NCBI RefSeq assembly: GCF_002261335.1
Contig: NZ_NEVL01000003.1
Coordinates: 372,001 to 436,000 of the forward strand
DNA length: 64,000 bases
DNA from: Bordetella genomosp. 1
GTDB lineage: Bacteria; Pseudomonadota; Gammaproteobacteria; Burkholderiales; Burkholderiaceae_B
Reading direction: 5' to 3'
A model generated the notes under the pieces. The model saw only the letters and a list, made by a program, of their open reading frames with translations. It ran no database searches and was not told where the DNA came from. Positions 3,279 to 53,209 of this stretch are shown one piece after another (position 1 is the stretch's first letter; each line of letters starts with the position of its first letter). The position numbers and the translations under genes were made by a program.

Positions 3279-4045
3279 GCGGCGTGCCTGTGGGTGCCGG
3301 CCGCAAGCGCGGCCTCGATCTGGTTGTAGTAGCGCGCGAACTCGAGCGAGCCGCGCTGGCGCGGGTAAGGCAGGTCGATGGCGATGTCGGCCGCGAGCGT
3401 GCCGGGGTGCGGCGCCATGACGACGGCGCGCTGCGCCAGGAAGATCGCCTCGTCGATGTTGTGCGTGACGAACAGCACCGACACGCCGGTTTCCTGCCAC
3501 AGGCGCAGCAGGTCCTGCTGCAGCGTGGCGCGCGTCATGGCGTCCACGGCCGCGAAGGGCTCGTCCATCAGCAGCACCTTCGGTTCGACCACCAGCGACC
3601 GCGCCACCGCGATGCGCTGGCGCATGCCGCCCGAGAGCTCATGCGGATAGCGTTCGGCCGCGTGGGCGAGGCCGACCCGGCGCAGCGCGGCGAGCGCCCG
3701 CTCGCGGCGTTCGCCGGCCGGCACCGATTGCGCGCGCAACCCGAACTCCACGTTCTGGCGCGCGGTCATCCACGGAAACAGCGCGTATTCCTGGAACACC
3801 ACGCCGCGCTCGGGCCCGGGCCGCGTCACGGCCGCGCCGTGGAAGGCCACCGTGCCCTCGGTGGGCTGCAGAAAGCCTGCCAGCAGGTGCAACAGCGTGG
3901 TCTTGCCGCAGCCGGACGGGCCGATGAGACAGACGAACTCGCCGGCCTGCACCTGCAGCGACACGTCGTGCAGCGCCTGCGCGGGGGCATCGCCCCGGGT
4001 CGCGAAGAACTGCGAGACCCGGTCGAACTCGATCAGCGCGGCCAT
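3275..4045 (-). CDS. ABC transporter ATP-binding protein, SsuB/TauB/NrtD family
   Basis: A 256-residue nucleotide-binding subunit. The Walker A motif GPSGCGKT is at residues 42-49, a Q-loop follows, the signature LSGGMRQR lies near 136, and Walker B LLMDEPF near 158, followed by the switch histidine in FVTHNIDEA. All catalytic elements are intact. The gene begins three bases after the binding-protein stop and overlaps the permease start by four bases, so the three transporter genes form one transcription unit. It powers uptake of the same unidentified substrate. Confidence 0.92.
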   Translation of the reverse strand: MAALIEFDRVSQFFATRGDAPAQALHDVSLQVQAGEFVCLIGPSGCGKTTLLHLLAGFLQPTEGTVAFHGAAVTRPGPERGVVFQEYALFPWMTARQNVEFGLRAQSVPAGERRERALAALRRVGLAHAAERYPHELSGGMRQRIAVARSLVVEPKVLLMDEPFAAVDAMTRATLQQDLLRLWQETGVSVLFVTHNIDEAIFLAQRAVVMAPHPGTLAADIAIDLPYPRQRGSLEFARYYNQIEAALAAGTHRHAA

Positions 4046-4048
4046 GGT

Positions 4049-5101
4049 TCAGGACAGCGTGACGCGCTCGGGCGCGGCGGCGGCGAGGGGCGCGTCCTTG
4101 ATCGCGGCGCGGAACAGAGTGCGCAGATCCCCGGCCGGCTTGGGCGAGAGCTTGTTGTCGATCGCCCATTGCGCCTGCACGACCAGGTCTTCGATGAAGC
4201 TGTCGTCGAAACCGACCTTGAACTCGAACACCGAGGTGGCCTGCTTGACCTCGGCCGGCGTGCTGCGGATGCGCGCGGCGATCAGTTCGGGCCAGGCCGG
4301 ATCCTGCGCAATGCGCTTTTCCGCGTCGAGCAGGGCGGCGATGGCGTCGCGCACCAGCGGTCCGCGATTGTCCAGGGTGTTCTGGTTCACCAGCAGCAAC
4401 TGATGGCTGCGGAAAAACTTCTCGTAGCCGGTCTGGGTGAGGAAATAGGCCTTGCCGCCGCTCTGGCGCAAGGCGGCGTTGCCGGCCTGCGCGGTCCAGG
4501 AGAAGGCATCGATGTCGCCCCGCACCAGCGCGCCGATCAGGTCGGTGGGCGCCAGGTTGACCTGGGTCACGTCGCGCTGGCCCAGGCCGGCAAAATCCAG
4601 ATAGCGCGCCAGCGCGTACTGGCCGGAGGTGCCGGCTGGCGTGCCGACCTTCTTGCCCTTCAGGCTGGCGGGATCGTCGGCCTTGATACCGCTGCCCTCG
4701 CGCGCCACGATCTTCATGTCGTAGGAGTAGCGCGAGAAGTTGGCCAGGACGCCGGGCTTGAGGCCCTGCAGCACCGCGAACACGAAGGGCGTGTCGGTGG
4801 TGGTGGAGAAATTGGCGGAGCCGGCCAGCAGGGCCTGCATCGAGTCGCGGCCGGTGGGGAAGTCCAGCACCTTCAGGTCGACGTTGCGGTCTTTCCAGTA
4901 GCCGGCGCTCTCGGCCACGAATGGCAGGGCCCAGGTATAGCCGGCGCTGCCCGAGGCCAGCACGGCCTGCTCGCGGGCCTGGGCCAGCACGGCGCGCGGC
5001 AGCGACACGCCGGCCACCCCGGCGGTTGCGGCCACGCCGATGTTGAAGAGCAGACGCCGCCGCGCGGTGTCGATGGTGGCCAGTTTCTTGAACGAACTCA
5101 T
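4049..5101 (-). CDS. ABC transporter substrate-binding protein, NMT1/SsuA-like, Tat-type signal
   Basis: A 350-residue periplasmic binding protein and first gene of the ABC operon. The start at 5101 gives an N-terminus with the twin-arginine-like motif TARRRLLF, a hydrophobic stretch and a probable cleavage after VLAQA; an upstream in-frame extension to 5245 lacks these features. The body (YTWALPFVAESAGYWKDRNV onward) is typical of the NMT1/SsuA/TauA fold that binds sulfonates, nitrate or pyrimidine precursors. It is divergent from a flavin monooxygenase gene, an arrangement often seen where imported organosulfur or chelate compounds are oxidised. Confidence 0.88.
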   Translation of the reverse strand: MSSFKKLATIDTARRRLLFNIGVAATAGVAGVSLPRAVLAQAREQAVLASGSAGYTWALPFVAESAGYWKDRNVDLKVLDFPTGRDSMQALLAGSANFSTTTDTPFVFAVLQGLKPGVLANFSRYSYDMKIVAREGSGIKADDPASLKGKKVGTPAGTSGQYALARYLDFAGLGQRDVTQVNLAPTDLIGALVRGDIDAFSWTAQAGNAALRQSGGKAYFLTQTGYEKFFRSHQLLLVNQNTLDNRGPLVRDAIAALLDAEKRIAQDPAWPELIAARIRSTPAEVKQATSVFEFKVGFDDSFIEDLVVQAQWAIDNKLSPKPAGDLRTLFRAAIKDAPLAAAAPERVTLS

Positions 5102-5179
5102 GCTGCGTGATCCGAAGTGAGGGGTGTCATAGCTTGCGGTCATGCTAGGGGCGGCTCGTTGCGCGCACAAAGAATATCT

Positions 5180-5220
5180 CGGCATATGCTTGGGGCCGGT
5201 CGGCGCATACCGATATGCCG
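5180..5220. promoter_or_regulatory. inverted-repeat operator candidate in the divergent ABC/monooxygenase promoter region
   Basis: The arms CGGCATAT (5180-5187) and ATATGCCG (5213-5220) are perfect inverse copies 25 bases apart, and a third related half-site TCGGCGCATAC lies between them at 5200-5210. The block sits midway in the 184-base gap between the binding-protein start and the monooxygenase start. It could let one regulator control both directions. No regulator gene adjoins it. Confidence 0.45.
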
Positions 5221-5285
5221 AAAGCGTCGTTCGCGCGCGCCCCACGCGGGACTATGGTGATGGCCTGCAACCCTGGGGCCGCCTC

Positions 5286-6611
5286 ATGCCCGCGCAACGT
5301 CAACTCAGGCTGGGCGCCTTCATGCGCCCGGTCAGCATCCACACCGGCGCCTGGCGCTATCCGGGCGCCCAACGCGACGCCAACTTCAATTACCCGGCGC
5401 TGCGGCGCTATGCGCAGACGCTGGAGCGGGCGCGGTTCGACGCCTTCTTCATGGCCGACCACCTGGCGCTGCTCAACATGCCGATCGAGGCGCTCAAGCG
5501 CAGCCACACGGCGACGTCGTTCGAGCCCTTCACGCTGCTGTCGGCGCTGAGCCAGGCCACCGAGCGCATCGGCCTGGTGGCCACGGCCTCCACGACCTTC
5601 GACGAACCCTTCCACGTGGCGCGGCGCTTCGCCTCGCTCGACCACCTGAGCGCGGGCCGGGCGGGCTGGAACATCGTGACCACGGCCAATCCGGACGCGG
5701 CACTCAACTTCGGCCGCACCGAACAGCCCGACCACGCGCTGCGCTACGCGCGGGCCCGCGAGTTCTACGACGTGGTGACCGGCCTGTGGGACAGCTGGGC
5801 CGACGACGCCTTCGTGCGCGACGCCGACAGTGGCGTGTACTTCGATCCGGCCAGGCTGCACACGCTCGATCACCGCGGCGAGCACCTGTCGGTGAAGGGC
5901 CCGCTGCACATCGCCCGGCCGGTGCAGGGCTGGCCGGTCATCGTGCAGGCGGGCGCGTCAGAACCTGGCCGCCAGCTCGCGGCCGAGACGGCCGAGGTGA
6001 TCTTCGCGGCGCAGCCGACGCTGGCCGATGGACGGGCCTTCTATGCCGACGTGAAGGGGCGCATGGATCGTCTGGGCCGCAATCGCGACCATCTGAAGAT
6101 CCTGCCCGGCGCGCTGGTGGTGGTGGGCGAGACGGCCGAGGCGGCCCGCGCGATCCGGGCGCGGCTGGACAGCCTGGTGCACGAACAGAGCGCGATCGCG
6201 TCGCTGTCCATCGCGCTGGGCTGCGACGCCAGCCGTTTCGATCCGGACGGCAGGCTGCCGCCGATCCCGGAAACCAACGCGAGCAAGAGCAGCCGCGAAC
6301 GCGTCTTGCGGCTTGCCGAGGAAGAGGGGCTGACCGTGCGGCAGCTGGCGCAGCGGCTCGGCGGCTACGGCGGGCTGGCGTTCGTGGGCACCGCTCGCCA
6401 GATCGCCGACCAGATGCAGCAGTGGCTGGAACAAGAGGGCGCCGACGGCTTCAACGTGATGTTCCCGTGGCTGCCGGGCGGGCTCGACGCGTTCGTGGCG
6501 GACGTCATCCCGGAGCTTCAGGGCCGGGGGCTGTTCCGGCGCGAGTACGAAGGCAGCACGCTGCGCGAACATCTCGGCCTGCCGCGGCCGGAGAACCGCC
6601 ACTTTCGCTGA
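5286..6611 (+). CDS. flavin-dependent monooxygenase, NtaA/SnaA/DszA family (luciferase-like)
   Basis: A 441-residue bacterial-luciferase-fold enzyme. Family hallmarks include FMADHLA near residue 57, the AGWNIVTTANPDAALNFG segment, and VQAGASEPGRQLAAETAEVIF, which forms the FMNH2 and substrate pocket in this subgroup. Members oxidise nitrilotriacetate, dibenzothiophene sulfones, alkyl sulfides or pristinamycin precursors with a separate flavin reductase supplying FMNH2; no reductase gene is adjacent. The ATG at 5286 was preferred over an upstream start at 5142 because conserved sequence begins just after it. The gene is divergent from an ABC importer, so the imported compound may be its substrate. 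Confidence 0.88.
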   Translation: MPAQRQLRLGAFMRPVSIHTGAWRYPGAQRDANFNYPALRRYAQTLERARFDAFFMADHLALLNMPIEALKRSHTATSFEPFTLLSALSQATERIGLVATASTTFDEPFHVARRFASLDHLSAGRAGWNIVTTANPDAALNFGRTEQPDHALRYARAREFYDVVTGLWDSWADDAFVRDADSGVYFDPARLHTLDHRGEHLSVKGPLHIARPVQGWPVIVQAGASEPGRQLAAETAEVIFAAQPTLADGRAFYADVKGRMDRLGRNRDHLKILPGALVVVGETAEAARAIRARLDSLVHEQSAIASLSIALGCDASRFDPDGRLPPIPETNASKSSRERVLRLAEEEGLTVRQLAQRLGGYGGLAFVGTARQIADQMQQWLEQEGADGFNVMFPWLPGGLDAFVADVIPELQGRGLFRREYEGSTLREHLGLPRPENRHFR

Positions 6612-41968: not shown

Positions 41969-42002
41969 ACCCACCCCCGGCAGCTCGCACCGTCCCACCC
42001 AA

Positions 42003-42567
42003 AACAAAGGTGTCAGACTGCATTTATCTGCATAGCCCCGAACCAAACAAAGGTGTCAGACTGCATTTGTCCGTGCGGGCGCATTCCAAACAAAGACAAA
42101 GGTGTCAGACTGCATTTTCCGGTGCAGGCCAGGGGCCGAGGAAAGGTGTCAGACTGCAATTTTTGGGACTGCCGGCGGGCTGTAAATGCAGTCTGACTCC
42201 ATTGTTTTGCGTGTCGAGCCGTTGGACTCGCGATTGGCGGGAGCCGGGAATGGCTCTTGGAGACGTCGTGGGCGTTGCAGCGAGATGCGGCTGCGGAATG
42301 CGGCCGTGGCGTTGCCGCGATTGCGCGATACGCCGAAGGATTGCGGTGTGATGCGTGGTGAGCAGGATCAGCACCGCTTGCCGGCAGGCATTGACGCAGC
42401 GCGATCAGGAGGAGCAACTGCGCAGATCATGGAGTACGCGACTGACGGCGCATCGGAAAATGCAGTCTGACTCCATTGTTGGGTTCGCGCCTGCGCAGAT
42501 AAATGCAGTCTGACACCTTTGTTTGGGCGGCCGGCGGCGCGAAAAATGTAGTCTGACACCTTTGTTT
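42003..42567. repeat. intergenic repeat cluster 4 (eight copies, 4 direct then 4 inverted)
   Basis: Largest cluster of the same element. Direct copies: 42003-42025, 42046-42068, 42096-42118 and 42141-42164. Inverted copies: 42184-42207, 42457-42480, 42500-42524 and 42542-42567. Two inverted copies (42184, 42457) carry GACTCCATTG in place of GACACCTTTG, a shared variant suggesting they duplicated from each other. The 249 bases between 42208 and 42456 are unique sequence with no gene. The whole lies between the divergent nrdD and PRC-barrel genes. Confidence 0.92.
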
Positions 42568-42644
42568 TGGATTGCGAGGTACGAGGGGTAAGAAGCTTGG
42601 TGGGATGGGTCGAGATCGTCTTCTGCTCCCAGGGACGAAATGCG

Positions 42645-42660
42645 CATAATGTATATTATG
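42645..42660. promoter_or_regulatory. AT-rich palindrome upstream of PRC-barrel gene
   Basis: CATAATGTATATTATG has perfect 6-base arms (CATAAT / ATTATG) around GTAT, in a GC-rich setting, 246 bases before the PRC-barrel start. Candidate regulator binding site or promoter for the long leader (42568-42905), in which I see no gene. Confidence 0.4.
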
Positions 42661-42905
42661 TAAAGTAGAGGTTGGACGTTGCGGAGGGATGGATTGGGGA
42701 TTCGGCCTGCTCCGTCTGCTGTCCGGCTGGTACTTCAATGCGCCCTGGTCTGCCTGGTCATGCCGTCGTCCTTACGGTTCGGGTCCGGCGCTTGCTCTGG
42801 GCAGTTTTGCCGGCGTGCGATTCGGGGTGCTGCCTCGATCGTTGCGCGGCATTGGTCAGCCTTTGGCTGCTATCGCGTGCCTTGACCCTGCCCAGGGAGA
42901 TCATC

Positions 42906-46921: not shown

Positions 46922-47034
46922 GGGTCACATCCCTTTCTGTTCATCAATGCGCCGTATGCCGGATGAGCGCAGGCAAAAGGGACACGCGCAGGTGTAACGC
47001 TATGAAACTGCGGGCGCGCCGCAGGCGACTCGGT

Positions 47035-48015
47035 TCAGGGTGCGAGCGTGACCCAGTAACGAGTGCGCGCCACCACGCGCAGGTCGAGCGTAGTGGCCAC
47101 GATGGCCAGCAGCGCGTCGGTATCGTCGAGGCGGAACACGCCGGAGACGCGCCGCGCCGCAACCGCCGGGTCGCAGCGCACGAACCCGTCGCGATAGCGC
47201 GTAACCTCCGCCAGCAGCGCGTCCAGCCGCATGTCGCTGGCCTCGATCACCCCGCGCGTCCAGCCGGGTTCGGCGGCCGGGCGGATCGCGGTGGCGTCGG
47301 GATCGCGCTGGAACGCGCGCGCCGTGAAACGCAGCGACTCGCCGGCGCCCACGATGCGCGTGCCGGGGCCGTCCCGCAGTGTTACCGCGACCCGATGCTC
47401 GAGCACCGTCAGCTCGGTGCTGGGCTCGCCCGCGTCCCATTGCCGCACCACGAAGCGTGTGCCGAGCGCTCGCAGAAAGCCCTGCGGCGTCTCCACGATG
47501 AAGGGCCGCGCCCGGGCGGCCGCGTCGGGCGCCGTGCGCACGTACACCTCGCCCGCGCGCAGCTGCACCCGCCGCGTCTGCTCTGAATACTGCACCTGCA
47601 TCGCGGTATCGGTGTTGAGATGGACCTGGCTGCCATCGGCCAGCCGTACTTCGCGGCGGTCGCCCACCGCGGTGCGATAGCCGCCTTCGGCCGCGCCGTT
47701 CACACGGTGCGCGACCCAGGCCGCGGCCGGCACGGTGAGCCCGAACGCGGCCAGCGTGCGCAGCACCGTGCGCCGGCTCACGCGCGCGCTCCGCGTGAGC
47801 AGCGGCACGCCGAGCGCGGCGGGCACGGCATCGAAATGCTGATTCAGGCGTTGGGCGCGCTGCCAGGCGCGCTCGCGTTCCGGGCTGCCCTCGCGCCAGC
47901 GCTGGAAGGCGGCATGGTCGTCGGGGCCGGCCTCGCCGGAGTGCAGGCGCACGAGCCAGCGGGCCGCCTCGCGTATGACGGCCGCGTCCAGCGGCCTCTG
48001 ATCGGCGGCGCTCAC
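47035..48015 (-). CDS. fecR: FecR-family anti-sigma/signal transducer
   Basis: A 326-residue membrane protein. Residues 10-65 are the cytoplasmic DUF4880-type domain (AARWLVRLHSGEAGPDDHAAFQRWREGSPERERAW). One membrane segment lies at about 82-102, and the periplasmic FecR domain follows (YRTAVGDRREVRLADGSQVHLNTDTAMQVQY). It carries the signal from the TonB receptor to FecI. The start lies 4 bases after the fecI stop. Confidence 0.92.
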   Translation of the reverse strand: MSAADQRPLDAAVIREAARWLVRLHSGEAGPDDHAAFQRWREGSPERERAWQRAQRLNQHFDAVPAALGVPLLTRSARVSRRTVLRTLAAFGLTVPAAAWVAHRVNGAAEGGYRTAVGDRREVRLADGSQVHLNTDTAMQVQYSEQTRRVQLRAGEVYVRTAPDAAARARPFIVETPQGFLRALGTRFVVRQWDAGEPSTELTVLEHRVAVTLRDGPGTRIVGAGESLRFTARAFQRDPDATAIRPAAEPGWTRGVIEASDMRLDALLAEVTRYRDGFVRCDPAVAARRVSGVFRLDDTDALLAIVATTLDLRVVARTRYWVTLAP

Positions 48016-48019
48016 GGCT

Positions 48020-48520
48020 TCAGTGCTCCATCATCGTGAGGCAGATCTCGAACCCCTGGGCCATGTAGCGCTTGACCGTGCGGTCGCTCAGCCCGGTCCG
48101 GGTGGCGATCTCCAGATAGGTGAGGCCTTCGAGCTGGGACAGCACGAACACCTCGCGCGCCTGGGGCGCCAGGTTGCCGAGCATGCGATCGAGCTGCTGC
48201 AGGGCCTGCTGCACGGCCAGCAGCATCTCGGGCGACGCCTCCAGTTCGGGCGGCATGGCCGCCACGGCCTGCATCCAGGCGCGCTCGAGCGAGCGGCGGC
48301 GCCAATGGTCGTTGAGCAGCCCGCGCGCGATCGTCGTCAGATAGGCGCGCGGCTGGCGCAGCGTGCGTACCGCTTCGGGGTTGCGCAGCACCCGCAGAAA
48401 GGTGTCGTGCGCGAAATCCGCGGCCTCGTCGCCCTGCCCGAGCTGATGCCGCCACCACTGGCAGAGCCATTCGTAGTGGTTTTCGCACAGGAGCTGCAAC
48501 GGCTGGAGGGGGTTGGACAT
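48020..48520 (-). CDS. fecI: ECF sigma factor, FecI family
   Basis: A 166-residue sigma factor. Region 2 covers about residues 10-75 (YEWLCQWWRHQLGQGDEAADFAHDTFLRVLRN). Region 4 covers 105-160 (LAPQAREVFVLSQLEGLTYLEIATRTGLSDRTVKRYMAQGFEICL). The ATG at 48520 begins at the normal FecI N-terminus; a longer frame to 48604 covers the promoter. It directs transcription of the receptor operon when iron chelate is sensed and is expected to be repressed by Fur; a Fur-like box lies 80 bases upstream. Confidence 0.92.
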   Translation of the reverse strand: MSNPLQPLQLLCENHYEWLCQWWRHQLGQGDEAADFAHDTFLRVLRNPEAVRTLRQPRAYLTTIARGLLNDHWRRRSLERAWMQAVAAMPPELEASPEMLLAVQQALQQLDRMLGNLAPQAREVFVLSQLEGLTYLEIATRTGLSDRTVKRYMAQGFEICLTMMEH

Positions 48521-48600
48521 GCTATCGAGCGCCCGACGTGCGGCGCGGTGACACACAGAAAAGCCGCCTGCCCGGAGGCCGGGCCGGCGGCGAACACGGC

Positions 48601-48619
48601 GCAAATGATACCAATAACC
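48601..48619. promoter_or_regulatory. Fur box candidate upstream of fecI
   Basis: GCAAATGATACCAATAACC matches the 19-base Fur consensus at 12 positions, including the AATGATA core. It sits 81-99 bases before the fecI start, a sensible place for iron repression. Confidence 0.5.
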
Positions 48620-48786
48620 GTTCGCAACTTCGAGCCCGGCGTGATCGGCTGTTGCGCGGACGCGTCTTGGTCCCGCTCAACCGGGCAAGCTTCTGCGCTG
48701 GGCGACCCGCAGCCGCATCAGTGTTCAGCGAGCCATGGGCGCGTCGCCTGCGCGCCGCCCAGTCGTTTGGCGCTGTGCGAACGCAG

Positions 48787-50001
48787 TCAGGACTCGTGCC
48801 GCGCCCGGCATCGATCGTGCATGCAATGGAGCGCGGAAAGCAATACGGGGACGAGGGCCAGGAAGCCCAATAACGTCGGGATCCGGGCTGCTCCAGCAAT
48901 GTCCCCTGCCCGGCCGATGAACGGCAGCCAGACCAGGAGCAGCAGCCGAGTCACGGATGAGTTCAATGACTCCGCGGTGGCAAACAGGGCTTCTGACTGG
49001 GTCCGCTGGAAGCTCGCGTATAGGTGGATGTGGGCGAGCTTGATGAAGAAGAATGCCAGGCAAAGGAAGCCGGTCGATAGAACCAGCCTGAATGGACCGG
49101 CCGAGTGCGGAATCAGGAAGAAGCAAAGCGGCATTCCCAGTGAGATCATCACCATCTGCGTTCTGGATGCCGCGAGCTTTGTCGCGACGTGAGCGGCCGC
49201 GGATTGCGCCAGCAGAATGCACAGGAATACGAAGCCGTAGACGTACCCAGACCGATCAAATGCTTCCCCGCCAAACAGGATGGGCTGCCAAAATTGGATG
49301 ATCACCTGAAACAGCAGCGCGGTCGTCGCGGTACTCCAAAACAGCAAGGCCGAGCCGGAAGAGAACAGTACACGCTTCAGGGCTGCGCCGAGGCCGGAGA
49401 ATCGATGAACGCCGGTGACAGGGGCGCCAGCATCGATCCGGTCATCGCTAAGCAGTCCGCCAAGTCCCAGCATGGCCACGACTATGAGACCGGCAGCCCA
49501 CCACCAGACGGTCGAGTGGGTTGCGGAAAATAGGGACGAACCTGCGAATGCGGCGATGCCCATCAGCAGGAACTGCCAGCGGTAGAACACGCCGATGACA
49601 TTTTCGTAGTTTTTGTTGTTCTGCTCTTTCTCGTGGGTTGCCAGCAGCAGTGACGTAAACGCACCGCTGAACAAGGCCATGGACAGCGCGTTGAAGACCT
49701 CCGCAATCAGAAACGTGAGGAAAGCATCTCCCGCCGCAGTCATAGCGAGCCAGATTATCGTGAACACCGTGCTGAGCAGGACGGCAGCCTTGCGGCTGTA
49801 CCTATCGGCGAAGTAGCCAAACGGGACGTCGGCGACGAGGATGACGAGCGCCTGAGTCGACTTAATGATTGCGAGATCGCCGATGCTCAAGCCCTTCGAC
49901 ATGAGGTAGATGCTAGAAGTTGCGCCGACCATCATCCTGATGGAGTTTGTAGTGAGGCCGTAGGCCATTGTTCCTCGGCTACCACTCAAGTTTGCGCACA
50001 T
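48787..50001 (-). CDS. MccC-like MFS exporter of the microcin C-type operon
   Basis: A 404-residue major facilitator protein with 12 hydrophobic segments; VADVPFGYFADRYSRKAAVL near residue 57 is the loop 2-3 motif. In E. coli the microcin C operon, mccB is followed by mccC, an MFS pump of similar size that exports the antibiotic and protects the producer. Here the gene follows the mccB-like gene with a 16-base overlap if the ATG at 50001 is used; an ATG at 49968, with GAGGA close upstream, would leave a 17-base gap. Codon use is AT-richer than the surrounding chromosome. Substrate assignment rests on context. Confidence 0.8.
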   Translation of the reverse strand: MCANLSGSRGTMAYGLTTNSIRMMVGATSSIYLMSKGLSIGDLAIIKSTQALVILVADVPFGYFADRYSRKAAVLLSTVFTIIWLAMTAAGDAFLTFLIAEVFNALSMALFSGAFTSLLLATHEKEQNNKNYENVIGVFYRWQFLLMGIAAFAGSSLFSATHSTVWWWAAGLIVVAMLGLGGLLSDDRIDAGAPVTGVHRFSGLGAALKRVLFSSGSALLFWSTATTALLFQVIIQFWQPILFGGEAFDRSGYVYGFVFLCILLAQSAAAHVATKLAASRTQMVMISLGMPLCFFLIPHSAGPFRLVLSTGFLCLAFFFIKLAHIHLYASFQRTQSEALFATAESLNSSVTRLLLLVWLPFIGRAGDIAGAARIPTLLGFLALVPVLLSALHCMHDRCRARHES

Positions 50002-51056
50002 GCTTGGCAGCTTCCACTCTTGTTGCAGTCCTGCACCTCGATTTGGAGACTGCGGGTGTGAATGCCGATTCGCTTGTTGGCAGATAACGGCTCAGCGTAA
50101 CCGCCCAGATATCGCAGAATGTCGTTGGTCGCCATTGCTGCTGCAATGGCGTTAACCGCAACGAAGGACGGGGGCTTTGAGTTCTGATTGATCGACCCAC
50201 AGTAGGCCTTCGAGAGCGTGTCGGTCAGGCTCAGGTCCTGCGTCAGGTTAGCGTTGCAACAGTAGCAACCCGTCCGGTTCGGGATGTAGAAGGGACCGAA
50301 TACGGCAATATCGCCAACGTATCCAATGACCAAGTACGGAAATTTTCCCCTGATTGCATAATCGTTGACCCAAATCGCAATGCTTTCAGGGGTGTCGGCG
50401 GATAAAGCGATGACATCGGCTCGAGGAAGCAACTCAAGCGATTCAGTTCCACTGATTGCCAGCGCGATCCGATCGACTGACACCTCGCTATTTCTTTTTT
50501 CTAGCTCGCGCGCGAGCACGTCGACCTTCGGTTCGCCCAAGTCGCTTTCGCAAAACATATGCTGGCGGGTCAGATTGGATAATTCGATTACGTCGTCGTC
50601 GACCAACGTGAGGTGCCCAATGCCGGCAGTTGCCAAGTTCACTGCGAGATGATTCCCTATGCCCCCGCAGCCAAGAATCACGACATGACTCTGCGCTAGG
50701 TTCTGTTGGACGTCCGCAGGATCGTATGACCAACCGCCGTAATAGAGCAGATGCCTGTTATATCGTTCGAGTGACGCGCTCTCGGCGTCGTCGTAATAGA
50801 CGACGTGATGTTTTTCGACGAGAAAATTGATTGCTTTCAATGCCGAACTCTCCGAGTGCCCCTGCTGTGCCAAATGCTGCAGGACAGCGGCAATGTGCTG
50901 CGGTTTTTTCCAGAAACTGATTGCCTGAAGAATCGGCTCGCAGTCCTTCAGTGTTGGGAAGACAGTTTGTCGTCCTCCAAGCCCGACAATGCACTGGTCA
51001 CCCGAAAATCCGATGAATACGTCCCCTGCGGCTACGAATTTTTTGGGCATGAGCAT
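49986..51056 (-). CDS. MccB-like ThiF/E1-family peptide adenylyltransferase
   Basis: A 356-residue enzyme, the length of E. coli MccB (about 350). An N-terminal domain (1-95) of the kind that clamps the substrate peptide precedes an E1-like fold. LERYNRHLLYYGG (96-108) and the ATP loop GCGGIG (129-134) are followed by LVDDD (151-155), the Asn/Arg pair in ELSNLTRQ, Lys in GEPKVD and Asp in ALSADTPE, all canonical E1 residues. Zinc cysteines are C264/C267 and C350/C353. It should convert the C-terminal Asn of the peptide encoded just upstream to a peptidyl-phosphoramidate-AMP. ATG at 51056 has GAGAG upstream; 51050 is possible. Confidence 0.88.
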   Translation of the reverse strand: MLMPKKFVAAGDVFIGFSGDQCIVGLGGRQTVFPTLKDCEPILQAISFWKKPQHIAAVLQHLAQQGHSESSALKAINFLVEKHHVVYYDDAESASLERYNRHLLYYGGWSYDPADVQQNLAQSHVVILGCGGIGNHLAVNLATAGIGHLTLVDDDVIELSNLTRQHMFCESDLGEPKVDVLARELEKRNSEVSVDRIALAISGTESLELLPRADVIALSADTPESIAIWVNDYAIRGKFPYLVIGYVGDIAVFGPFYIPNRTGCYCCNANLTQDLSLTDTLSKAYCGSINQNSKPPSFVAVNAIAAAMATNDILRYLGGYAEPLSANKRIGIHTRSLQIEVQDCNKSGSCQACAQT

Positions 51057-51092
51057 GACACTCTCTCGAACAAGGGCTTCAAACAATCGGAG

Positions 51093-51131
51093 AAAAAGGA
51101 GGATGCGTCTGTTTAACAAGAACGCACCTCC
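51093..51131 (-). terminator. intrinsic terminator between mccA-like and mccB-like genes
   Basis: On the minus strand GGAGGTGCGT (51131-51122) pairs with ACGCATCCTCC (51108-51098), with one bulged base and a 13-base loop, followed by five T residues (51097-51093). A terminator in this position is a known feature of the E. coli microcin C operon, where it yields abundant short mccA transcripts and limited readthrough into mccB. Confidence 0.8.
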
Positions 51132-51147
51132 AGGTTGCATTGATGGT

Positions 51148-51171
51148 TCAATTGTTGGCAGTGAAGCGCAT
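51148..51171 (-). CDS. microcin C-like precursor peptide, MRFTANN
   Basis: Seven codons then TGA encode MRFTANN. The ATG follows GGAGG with a 5-base spacer, a far stronger site than those of most genes here. The E. coli microcin C peptide MccA is also seven residues, MRTGNAN, beginning Met-Arg and ending in the Asn that MccB modifies. This frame starts 115 bases upstream of the mccB-like start, with a promoter before it and a terminator after it, exactly the order in E. coli. Far too short for gene callers. The product would be a Trojan-horse inhibitor of aspartyl-tRNA synthetase after processing; that activity is inferred. Confidence 0.82.
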   Translation of the reverse strand: MRFTANN

Positions 51172-51545
51172 GGCGACCTCCGTAGGTGGGTGAGAGAATC
51201 AAAAGCGAGAGTTTTCCTTTTCCACGAATTGATCGATGAAAATTCACGCTGCGAATTGAATCTACGTTTCGAGGAAAATGCGGTCAATGCGAACGAGGCT
51301 GACTTTCGAATTTTCCGGACGTGCGCACGTCAGATCTGCGTTAGAGATCCAGGATTTTCGAAGACGCTTTAGCCTGTGGCACCCAGCGCCGCACTCTCAC
51401 TTTGAGCGACAGACTCGGTGGCTAGACACAGAATCCGATAAGCGCCTGTTCTGGCGAGCTCTCGGTAGCCGTCACCGTGCGAGAACCTTAGGGTCTTTGC
51501 TTTGACTATCTAACTATCGGCGGCAAGGCGAGAGCCCGCGGTGAC
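51172..51545. other. 374-base lower-GC leader region of the microcin-like island
   Basis: No gene is supported. It contains the mccA-like promoter (51259-51287) and, further upstream, noncoding DNA of low GC up to the point near 51540 where GC-rich chromosomal sequence resumes. The composition shift marks one edge of the island. Confidence 0.6.
51259..51287 (-). promoter_or_regulatory. sigma70-type promoter of the microcin-like operon
   Basis: On the minus strand, TTGACC (51287-51282) and TAGATT (51264-51259) are separated by exactly 17 bases. Transcription would begin near 51252, giving a leader of about 80 bases before the seven-codon gene. Confidence 0.65.
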
Positions 51546-51728
51546 TCATGCGACTACAGGCCGCGCGGCCCGGTCGTGCCACCACCTGCCCGTCAACTCG
51601 GGCTTGAGTTCGAAGAAGGGCCGCCAGCCCTCGATCCAGTGTTCCGGATCGCGGGCGGCCTCGAACACCGCTTACGGGATGAAGGGCACCGGCCCGGCAT
51701 CGGTGCCGGCGTCGACGCGCTGGGTCAC
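51546..51728 (-). pseudogene. broken remnant of a gene downstream of the 51739-53016 gene
   Basis: A minus-strand frame starts with GTG at 51728, 11 bases after the preceding gene's stop and behind GAGG. It reads MTQRVDAGTDAGPVPFIP, meets TAA (51674-51672), and continues in the same frame as convincing protein sequence AVFEAARDPEHWIEGWR, then PFFELKPELTGRWWHD, to a stop at 51546. Composition is that of real coding sequence. The gene appears inactivated by a nonsense change and perhaps cut short by the island. No family recognised. Confidence 0.5.
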
Positions 51729-51738
51729 GGCACGATCC

Positions 51739-53016
51739 TCATTGACGCGTCCCGGCCGCTGCGGGCGTCACCGCCTGGCGCAGCAGGTCGTAGGTCGTGG
51801 CGCCGGGCAGGCGCGAGAAGAAGTCGTTGCGACTTTCGTTGTCGGCCCAGGCCGACCAGAGCGACACCACCACCAGCAGACCGTCATGCCAGGTCACCCG
51901 GGCCTCGAGGTCGCCGGCGCTCTCGCCGGCTTTGTCGGCCACGGTGAAGCGCAACCGGCGCGCGTCGATGCCCTGCTCCGCCAGCTCGGCGTCGGGCGCG
52001 TTCGATACCAGGGTCAAGGGGCGCGCATCGGGCGTCTGCTTCGAGAAATACTGCTGCAGCATCCGGGGTGCGGCGGTCTCCAGGTCCGGCGCATTGTCCA
52101 TCGGTTGCATCCACAACCAGATCAGCCCCACGTCCCTGCCCTGGCTGCGCCGCACCATGTGCAGTTCGGCCGGCAGGCTGCCCTTGAAATCATTGATGGG
52201 GATCTCCCAGCCCGGCGGCACCGCGATCGTGCGGGTGCGTGCGCCCAGGCGCAGCGGCACCGCCTGCAGCCCGCCGCCGAAGTTGGCCTGCTCGCCATCC
52301 GCAAAGCGCAGCGGCCGCATGAAGGCCACCGCATGGGCGTCGACGTCGCGCAGCTGCGCCTGCCCGGCCTCCGGCGAGCGGCCCTCGCCGAGATCGGCCA
52401 CGAAGTGAATCGCGAGCGCCTCCCGGCCGCGCGCGAAACAGTAGCTGATCAGCGCGCTCCGGGGCTCGCCCTGGGCCGGCTTCATGGCGTAGACCTGCGC
52501 CTCGGTCTGGTCGGGGGCGACCCGCGTGATGCGCGGCGCGTAGCCCGCCACGCGCGCCTCGTAGGTGCAGATCCGCAGCGCGGCGCCCGGCGAACGCAGT
52601 GCGTAGCCGACGATGGTGGTCTCGATGGGGAGCGCGGCGCCGGGCTGGGCGGCGATCTTGCCGATGATCTTGACGCGGCCCAGCGTGCCGGCCTCGGGCG
52701 GCTCCATCGGCACGGTTTCCACCTTGGCCTGGCCCGGCACCGCGGCGCGGAAGTTGAGCGAGGGGATGCCGAAGTCGAACGTGTGCGCGGTCCAGCCGGG
52801 GGCGATGTCGTCGCCGTCGGCTGCCACGCGCTCTGCTGCCGCGACCTGCGTCTCCGCCGCGACCTGCGCCGCGCCCGCCAGCAGCAATGCCGCGCCCACG
52901 AACGCGGCCCATGGCGACGCCGCGCGCCGTATGCGCCGAGGCACAAGCGGTGAGCGCTGCGGGCGGCTCCCGCGACGAACGCGGGCCGGGTCGGCCTGGA
53001 GTCGGTGTTGCGTCAT
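51739..53016 (-). CDS. hypothetical exported protein
   Basis: A 425-residue protein. The N-terminus has an Arg-rich stretch (RRIRRAASPW) before a hydrophobic segment at about 33-52 (AAFVGAALLLAGAAQVAAE), either a long signal peptide or a membrane anchor. The remainder alternates beta-type segments (WTAHTFDFGIPSLNFRAAVP, PPGWEIPINDFKGSLPAELHMVRR) and ends with LPGATTYDLLRQAV. I do not recognise the family. The start at 53016 was chosen over 53157 because the extension is Arg/Ala junk. It probably headed an operon with the broken gene that follows. Confidence 0.75.
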   Translation of the reverse strand: MTQHRLQADPARVRRGSRPQRSPLVPRRIRRAASPWAAFVGAALLLAGAAQVAAETQVAAAERVAADGDDIAPGWTAHTFDFGIPSLNFRAAVPGQAKVETVPMEPPEAGTLGRVKIIGKIAAQPGAALPIETTIVGYALRSPGAALRICTYEARVAGYAPRITRVAPDQTEAQVYAMKPAQGEPRSALISYCFARGREALAIHFVADLGEGRSPEAGQAQLRDVDAHAVAFMRPLRFADGEQANFGGGLQAVPLRLGARTRTIAVPPGWEIPINDFKGSLPAELHMVRRSQGRDVGLIWLWMQPMDNAPDLETAAPRMLQQYFSKQTPDARPLTLVSNAPDAELAEQGIDARRLRFTVADKAGESAGDLEARVTWHDGLLVVVSLWSAWADNESRNDFFSRLPGATTYDLLRQAVTPAAAGTRQ

Positions 53017-53209
53017 TCCGTATCCTGGTGCGGCGCGGGCGCGCATGGCCCCTGCCCTGGGTCTTCGAGCATAACCGAGCTCGCGCGCCGCGGCCGCACG
53101 AGCGCCCCGGCTGCGGCTAAGATGCGCAAGTTGCGCGCGCAACCGCGCGTGTCCCACCCGTCGGCTCCGTCGACACGCGCGCCCGCTCGCGCCATCTCAT
53201 CCAGGCACC

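Follow-up and report, generated by a model that had tools for sequence, protein, structure and literature searches.

A probable horizontally acquired, minimal microcin C-type operon with the heptapeptide gene MRFTANN in Bordetella genomosp. 1

A 64,000-base stretch of Bordetella genomosp. 1 (contig NZ_NEVL01000003.1, positions 372,001 to 436,000), hereafter the window, carries a compact three-gene unit on its minus strand at 51290-48787. It consists, in order, of a promoter candidate, the seven-codon peptide gene mccA, a hairpin, mccB and an MFS transporter gene. Very likely, this locus is a minimal biosynthetic operon of the microcin C type, mccABC, that was acquired horizontally. The genes, their order, their homology, the predicted fold and the conserved residues were observed here; the chemistry, the export and the control of expression described below would follow the microcin C family, as would the target and the antibiotic action. 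A first-pass annotation of the same DNA had proposed a microcin C-like operon, and the MccB homology, the heptapeptide frame, the MFS gene and the hairpin all agree with it. Every element that it placed was found at its position in the sequence, the frames and the translations. The microcin C class is already known from print, as are its heptapeptide rule, a diversity of heptapeptides and operons of three genes. A minimal set of mccA, mccB and an export gene is in print (PMC9239234), and the three-gene form is also described in PMC12250964.

The mccA gene (51148-51171, minus strand) reads ATG CGC TTC ACT GCC AAC AAT TGA and encodes MRFTANN, with a C-terminal Asn; relatives have such a frame at the same position. 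The Shine-Dalgarno sequence GGAGGT (51176-51181) stands 4 nucleotides ahead of the ATG. On both strands of the window, MRFTANN is the sole seven-codon frame from ATG to Asn whose Shine-Dalgarno match reaches 5 bases or more. Dinucleotide shuffling of the 400 nucleotides upstream of mccB gave a comparable seven-codon frame with a match of at least 5 bases in one of 5000 shuffles. When a 6-base match was required, none of 5000 further shuffles gave such a frame.

Precursors of the major MccB clade have 7 residues, rarely 8, end in Asn and are preceded by strong Shine-Dalgarno sequences (PMC6495379). The window likewise has a short precursor gene with a C-terminal Asn behind a strong Shine-Dalgarno sequence, adjoining mccB. 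Its 7 residues are the length tied to the major clade, which was not rebuilt from its own sequences, the grouping being judged from our own tree. The mccB gene is preceded by a mere GAGAGAG stretch, and the strong mccA site and the weaker mccB site are in line with a ratio of much peptide to little enzyme. No mention of MRFTANN was found in the literature searched; supplementary Table S1 of PMC6495379, a list of predicted precursors, may include it.

The mccB gene (49986-51056) encodes a 356-residue protein, a predicted peptide C-terminal nucleotidyltransferase of the E1/ThiF fold. It has two candidate starts, ATG 51056 and ATG 51050. The best match in PDB was E. coli MccB (3h5n, phmmer E 1.7e-75, residues 15-354), followed at a distance by ThiF (3.5e-18), MoeB (1e-17) and PaaA (1.1e-14). 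The window protein and E. coli MccB are identical at 137 of 349 aligned residues (39%). The nucleotide-binding loop CGGIGNH, Arg164, Lys177 and Asp221 are identical in E. coli, where the three residues (157, 170 and 214) are presumably catalytic. Cys264, Cys267, Cys350 and Cys353, which we take to bind zinc, are invariant in 12-row and 13-row alignments. Thus, the presumed catalytic and zinc-binding residues of MccB are all present, and the intact ATP and zinc motifs of the first-pass annotation are borne out.

In a tree of 48 proteins (53 were gathered and five short ones dropped), the window protein fell within a 32-row MccB group, split from 16 other ThiF-superfamily rows with support 100/99; for some rows the program flagged long branches and an uneven composition. 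Among the 16 outside rows, L060 and L065 were identified as MoeB by NCBIfam and L012 was examined in PDB; the rest are unlabelled. The Pantoea row L012 was considered as PaaA and dropped, since it is equally near to MccB (9.6e-26) and PaaA (8.3e-26). Within the 32-row group the window MccB stands alone, in no starred smaller set and at 45% identity or less to any member. An AlphaFold2 model from the 13-row alignment had a mean pLDDT of 84.6. In Foldseek, ranks 1 to 24 were all MccB chains, with TM-scores by query length of 0.85-0.88, followed by PaaA (0.68) and MoeB (0.58). The alignments to MccB crystals span 348-355 columns and take in the N-terminal part, whose modelling had been proposed as a check. 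Grouping with ThiF/MoeB had been set beforehand as grounds for giving up the proposal; phmmer, the tree, Foldseek and the NCBIfam scores given below all favour an MccB-type nucleotidyltransferase.

Relatives of mccB were obtained by a profile search with a three-row alignment (the best 80 of 98 matches); a first scan with the single protein had found none. Ahead of mccB, 27 of 38 relative loci have a frame of seven codons that runs from ATG to Asn and has 5 or more matching Shine-Dalgarno bases before it; MRTGNAN of E. coli is among them. Three more (Bartonella L023-L025) have the frame without a 5-base match. The frame is thus kept beside related mccB genes, as the first proposal demanded. 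The 38 loci are not independent, as L007/L009, L044/L045 and L048/L049 are identical or near-identical pairs, and in L037 and L046 the frame lies more than 300 bases from the aligned mccB start. Outside the 32-row group, no Asn-ending short frame was found in L011, L013, L015 and L016, and L014 has one TTG frame without a ribosome site.

The third gene, mccC (48787-50001), encodes a predicted MFS exporter of 404 residues, or 393 from the alternative start. The candidate starts are ATG 50001, which overlaps the mccB stop at 49986, and ATG 49968, which lies behind GAGG. The operon thus has an export gene, for which this family uses MFS or ABC types. The protein matched E. coli MccC (BLASTP E 5e-16), Pfam MFS_1 below cut-off (E 9.8e-8), and MFS proteins encoded behind other mccB genes with phmmer E-values down to 4e-44. 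An MFS gene matching the window's or E. coli MccC follows mccB in 32 of 36 loci, in two pieces in two of them; none was found in L011, L033, L034 and L047. Homologues of mccD and mccE are present in two of the 36 loci (L020 and L027) and mccF in none, within the stretches examined. The three-gene form is the usual one in this sample.

Between mccA and mccB, at 51093-51131 of the minus strand, is the hairpin GGAGGTGCG...CGCATCCTCC followed by TTTTT, a probable intrinsic terminator or attenuator. The folding energy of its stretch is -16.7 kcal/mol (z -2.35; 7 of 200 shuffles equally good), and the 75 nucleotides after mccA give z -2.04 (8 of 200). The fold beats most shuffles and is not extreme. 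The intrinsic terminator of the first-pass annotation holds as a sequence, and termination is predicted from the hairpin, the TTTTT and the z values. A terminator scan did not list the hairpin, supposedly because of its bulge, and Rfam gave no match at gathering score in 47000-53000 of the window. In plain folding, the 75 bases after mccA have z below -2 in 19 of 27 loci, the window included (median -2.85). The leader was also folded from the presumed start site to just past the T-run, both free and with the mccA ribosome footprint kept single-stranded. The terminator hairpin formed in both folds. When the leader was free, the most frequent partner of GGAG in the mccA ribosome site was CUCC right after the T-run, with a probability of ~0.4, so that the folds do not support a ribosome-controlled antiterminator in which this site pairs with the hairpin.

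The operon was probably gained by transfer: it is poor in G+C, it is found only in this genome among those sampled, and two sister species have the neighbouring genes without it. The G+C content is 52% in the mccA-mccB stretch and 59% in mccC, against 70% in the remainder of the window. Third-position G+C is 0.62 and 0.74 in the operon versus 0.88-0.91 in three neighbour genes. At cut-offs of E 1e-30 or 1e-35, mccB was matched in this genome alone in samples of 268 family, 399 order and 398 phylum genomes; the samples overlap, and each includes this genome as its only positive control. The two sister species keep the neighbouring fecI, fecR, TonB-receptor and PepSY genes (proteins 51-70% identical in the main matches), and no mccB or mccC match was found within 13 kb beside them. 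The stretches 48501-48800 and 51251-51760 share no direct repeat of 10-16 bases, and the edges show one 10-base G+C-rich inverted match. No mobile-element family was found among six flanking proteins scanned. Next to the operon, 51739-53157 encodes a 472-residue protein without a Pfam match, which has a 58% identical relative in a third sister species in a different setting.

As the first-pass annotation had said, mccD, mccE and mccF are lacking among the neighbouring genes. The operon is not of the extended E. coli type with an aminopropyl group and MccE/MccF immunity. MccE and MccF were sought genome-wide, whereas the search for MccD was limited to the genes beside the operon. No full MccE relative was found in the genome, where one GNAT protein matched at E 8.3e-6. 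Two S66 proteins are 28% and 24% identical to MccF, and relatives of these occur in 14 of 15 genus genomes, this one included. MccH-type immunity proteins have Lys for the third His of the HIT motif, and MccG-type ones have Asp for Glu in the S51 triad (PMC7157772, PMC9239234). By these motifs, judged without family trees, the genome has neither type: its three HIT proteins each have the ordinary HxHxH motif, and its one S51 protein reads by eye as Ser-His-Glu, PepE-like. E. coli gained no protection from an S51 protein with the PepE-type Glu (PMC9239234). The S66 and S51 proteins may still act on such compounds through a generic activity. A second aspartyl-tRNA synthetase was not found in the genome: one is above cut-off, and two further matches to the model, below cut-off, lie side by side in one open frame.

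PMC9239234 states that self-protection of minimal producers was not explicitly checked. A lone, foreign-looking minimal operon without a recognised immunity enzyme is a clean case for how such producers protect themselves. A tentative proposal, which we regard as somewhat doubtful, is that MRFTANN is an undescribed carrier, that the producer survives without the immunity enzymes sought, protected either solely by MccC export or by a resistance gene not recognised here, and that the uptake range differs from that of E. coli microcin C.

If the operon works as its family does, most transcripts made by RNA polymerase would be short and stop at the hairpin that follows mccA, and a ribosome on mccA would favour termination there (PMC6495379, PMC9239234, PMC12250964). 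The strong ribosome site on these transcripts would yield much fMRFTANN, and occasional read-through past the hairpin would give little MccB and MccC. MccB, spending ATP, would turn the last Asn into iso-asparagine joined to a nucleotide, most likely AMP, through an N-P bond, and MccC would export the peptidyl-nucleotide. In a sensitive cell the peptide would be imported and trimmed, and the freed isoaspartyl-nucleotide would block aspartyl-tRNA synthetase. The predicted product is formyl-MRFTANN-AMP, with a computed [M+H]+ of 1210.45, or 1182.45 if unformylated; the same calculation reproduced the E. coli microcin C forms at 1120 and 1177. With each new mccA comes another natural peptide that can carry an aspartyl-tRNA synthetase inhibitor in Trojan-horse fashion, and the peptide part governs uptake into target cells.

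Several observations weigh against the reading as a microcin C-type operon. E. coli MccB requires Thr3 of its own peptide (PMC12250964), while MRFTANN has Thr at position 4; therefore, the window MccB must read its peptide differently. The operon, and with it MRFTANN itself, is seen in one genome only. The likeness of MccC to its E. coli counterpart is modest (27% over 237 residues). No heptapeptide frame was found near mccB in six of the 38 loci (L011, L026, L031, L041, L042 and L043); of these, L011 is not part of the 32-row group, and in L041-L043 mccB is open over short pieces only. Two Pasteurellaceae relatives, L038 and L039, have 12-codon frames. The stretch after mccA falls short of z -2 in plain folding in 8 of 27 loci, and in 8 of 23 no T-tailed hairpin passed a filter that required one; the filter also missed the E. 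coli hairpin, and plain folding was used in its place. The candidate sigma-70-type promoter, TTGACC-17-TAGATT (51259-51287, minus strand, 9 of 12 matches), was the one match in a scan of 3.2 kb in which 1.0 was expected by chance. The promoter with 17-bp spacing in the first-pass annotation is thus present as a sequence, and its signal does not rise above chance. Finally, immunity of the S66, HIT, S51, MccE and MccF types was sought genome-wide, and no protein was recognised by similarity as dedicated to it.

The confinement to one genome, the chance-level promoter and the lack of a recognised immunity gene would also fit an intact operon without any product, either because it is silent or because it has been decaying since its transfer. 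This is unlikely, since none of the three frames is interrupted and neither the ribosome site nor the conserved residues have been lost. It is less likely still that the operon makes a different peptide conjugate, in which the peptide carries a cytidylate or an unreported nucleotide, or is cyclised in the way of PaaA and pantocin A. Peptidyl-cytidylates do occur in the wider family (PMC9239234), and the nucleotide choice of the window MccB is predicted only. However, the model and the phmmer scores are nearer to MccB than to PaaA, the precursor has the 7 residues tied to the major clade (PMC6495379), and the gene groups with E. coli MccB, in a tree that held no proven cytidylating MccB and no proven PaaA. 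It is highly improbable that the E1-like gene encodes a ThiF/MoeB-type sulfur-carrier activator or housekeeping enzyme beside an accidental seven-codon frame: although ThiF is the sole Pfam family matched and 25 NCBIfam models match, mostly ThiF, MoeB and E1-type, all 25 are under their cut-offs (104 bits versus 275 for ThiF, 85 versus 377 for MoeB), the MccB match starts at residue 15, ahead of the ThiF domain, the model aligns with MccB crystals over 348-355 columns, the tree sets the protein apart from the MoeB rows, a stronger PF00899 protein (267 bits) lies elsewhere in the genome, and shuffling rarely produced such a frame. A microcin C-type mccABC operon remains the favoured reading.

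The collected loci include further operons and frames. The 12-codon frames of L038 (3812) and L039 (3804) are Gly-rich and Asn-ending, MGGSVGIGGGFN and MGGGVGTGGGFN, and exceed the 7-8 residues of the major clade; the open mccB piece of L038 is short. In Borrelia, mccABC-like operons are present on lp89 of B. nietonii (L008, 2581-4904, MRGKTLN), on lp25 of B. garinii (L010, 2555-4896, MLGKNFN, with mccB as two annotated pieces) and twice on one B. californiensis contig, towards its opposite ends (L048/L049, 3586-5895, MLGKKFN). No paper that brings together MccB, Borrelia and microcin C was found in the literature search. Two metagenome-assembled genomes of Chlamydiota have mccB with the frames METEIGN (L034, 165) and MNTITTN (L040, 252); no recognised MccC-like MFS gene was found within the 4 kb contig of L034. 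The 42 kb contig L099, viral by its IMG/VR label, has MLGKTRN, a hairpin, mccB and mccC at 3926-6246, and the operon may travel on a phage-like element. Twenty phage records were matched, none of them across 80% of the query; the eight matches listed cover 47-49%. Among plasmid records, formaldehyde dehydrogenase DNA matches Comamonas and Ideonella at 86-87% in the eight of 63 records listed, a slight hint of a betaproteobacterium. On plasmid pXBB1-8 of Acinetobacter johnsonii (L014, 2707-7043), brxL is followed by a pair of ThiF-family genes and a gene for an ABC transporter; no precursor was identified. This gene order resembles that of a Hyalangium cluster with two mccB genes (PMC7157772). 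In the window itself, at 42000-42700, KGVRLHF, SDCI and KQRCQTAF recur in the translations of several frames, which suggests a short interspersed DNA repeat.

Among the named systems, PaaA of pantocin A (PDB 5ff5) is presumably also an E1-like enzyme acting on a ribosomal peptide. It differs in being the more distant match (TM-score by query length 0.68 versus 0.85-0.88 for MccB, phmmer 1.1e-14 versus 1.7e-75). The E. coli microcin C operon, mccABCDE with mccF (plasmid MccC7-H22, L007), has the same order A-B-C with a hairpin between mccA and mccB, a seven-codon mccA starting with Met-Arg and ending with Asn, overlapping mccB and mccC, and an MccB 39% identical to the window's. In contrast, its peptide is MRTGNAN instead of MRFTANN, its MccC shares just the 27% given above, it includes the mccD, mccE and mccF that the window operon has none of beside it, and it resides on a small plasmid, whereas the window operon is on a 1.88 Mb contig.

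Three-gene loci of Dickeya (L022, MISVSSN), Photorhabdus (L028 and L032), Moraxella (L036 and L037), Borrelia (L008) and Bartonella (L021 and L030) have the same short Asn-ending peptide, MccB and MFS gene. The MFS proteins of L022, L028, L032, L036 and L037 match the window's with phmmer E-values of 6e-40 to 9e-44. The peptides of these loci share little but Met1 and Asn7 with MRFTANN, and their MccB proteins are 28-43% identical to the window's. The best relative of the window MccB by E-value (9e-85, 44% identity, among the best 80 of 98 matches) is in L019 (MNSVVRN), a metagenome-assembled genome labelled 'Proteobacteria bacterium' LacPavin. It also has an MFS gene next to mccB; it differs in being uncultured and in an MFS protein that matches the window's at E 6.8e-24. 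The locus joins a known antibiotic family and is not a new type of system; its novelty lies in which peptide it encodes, in the isolated branch of its MccB and in its host.

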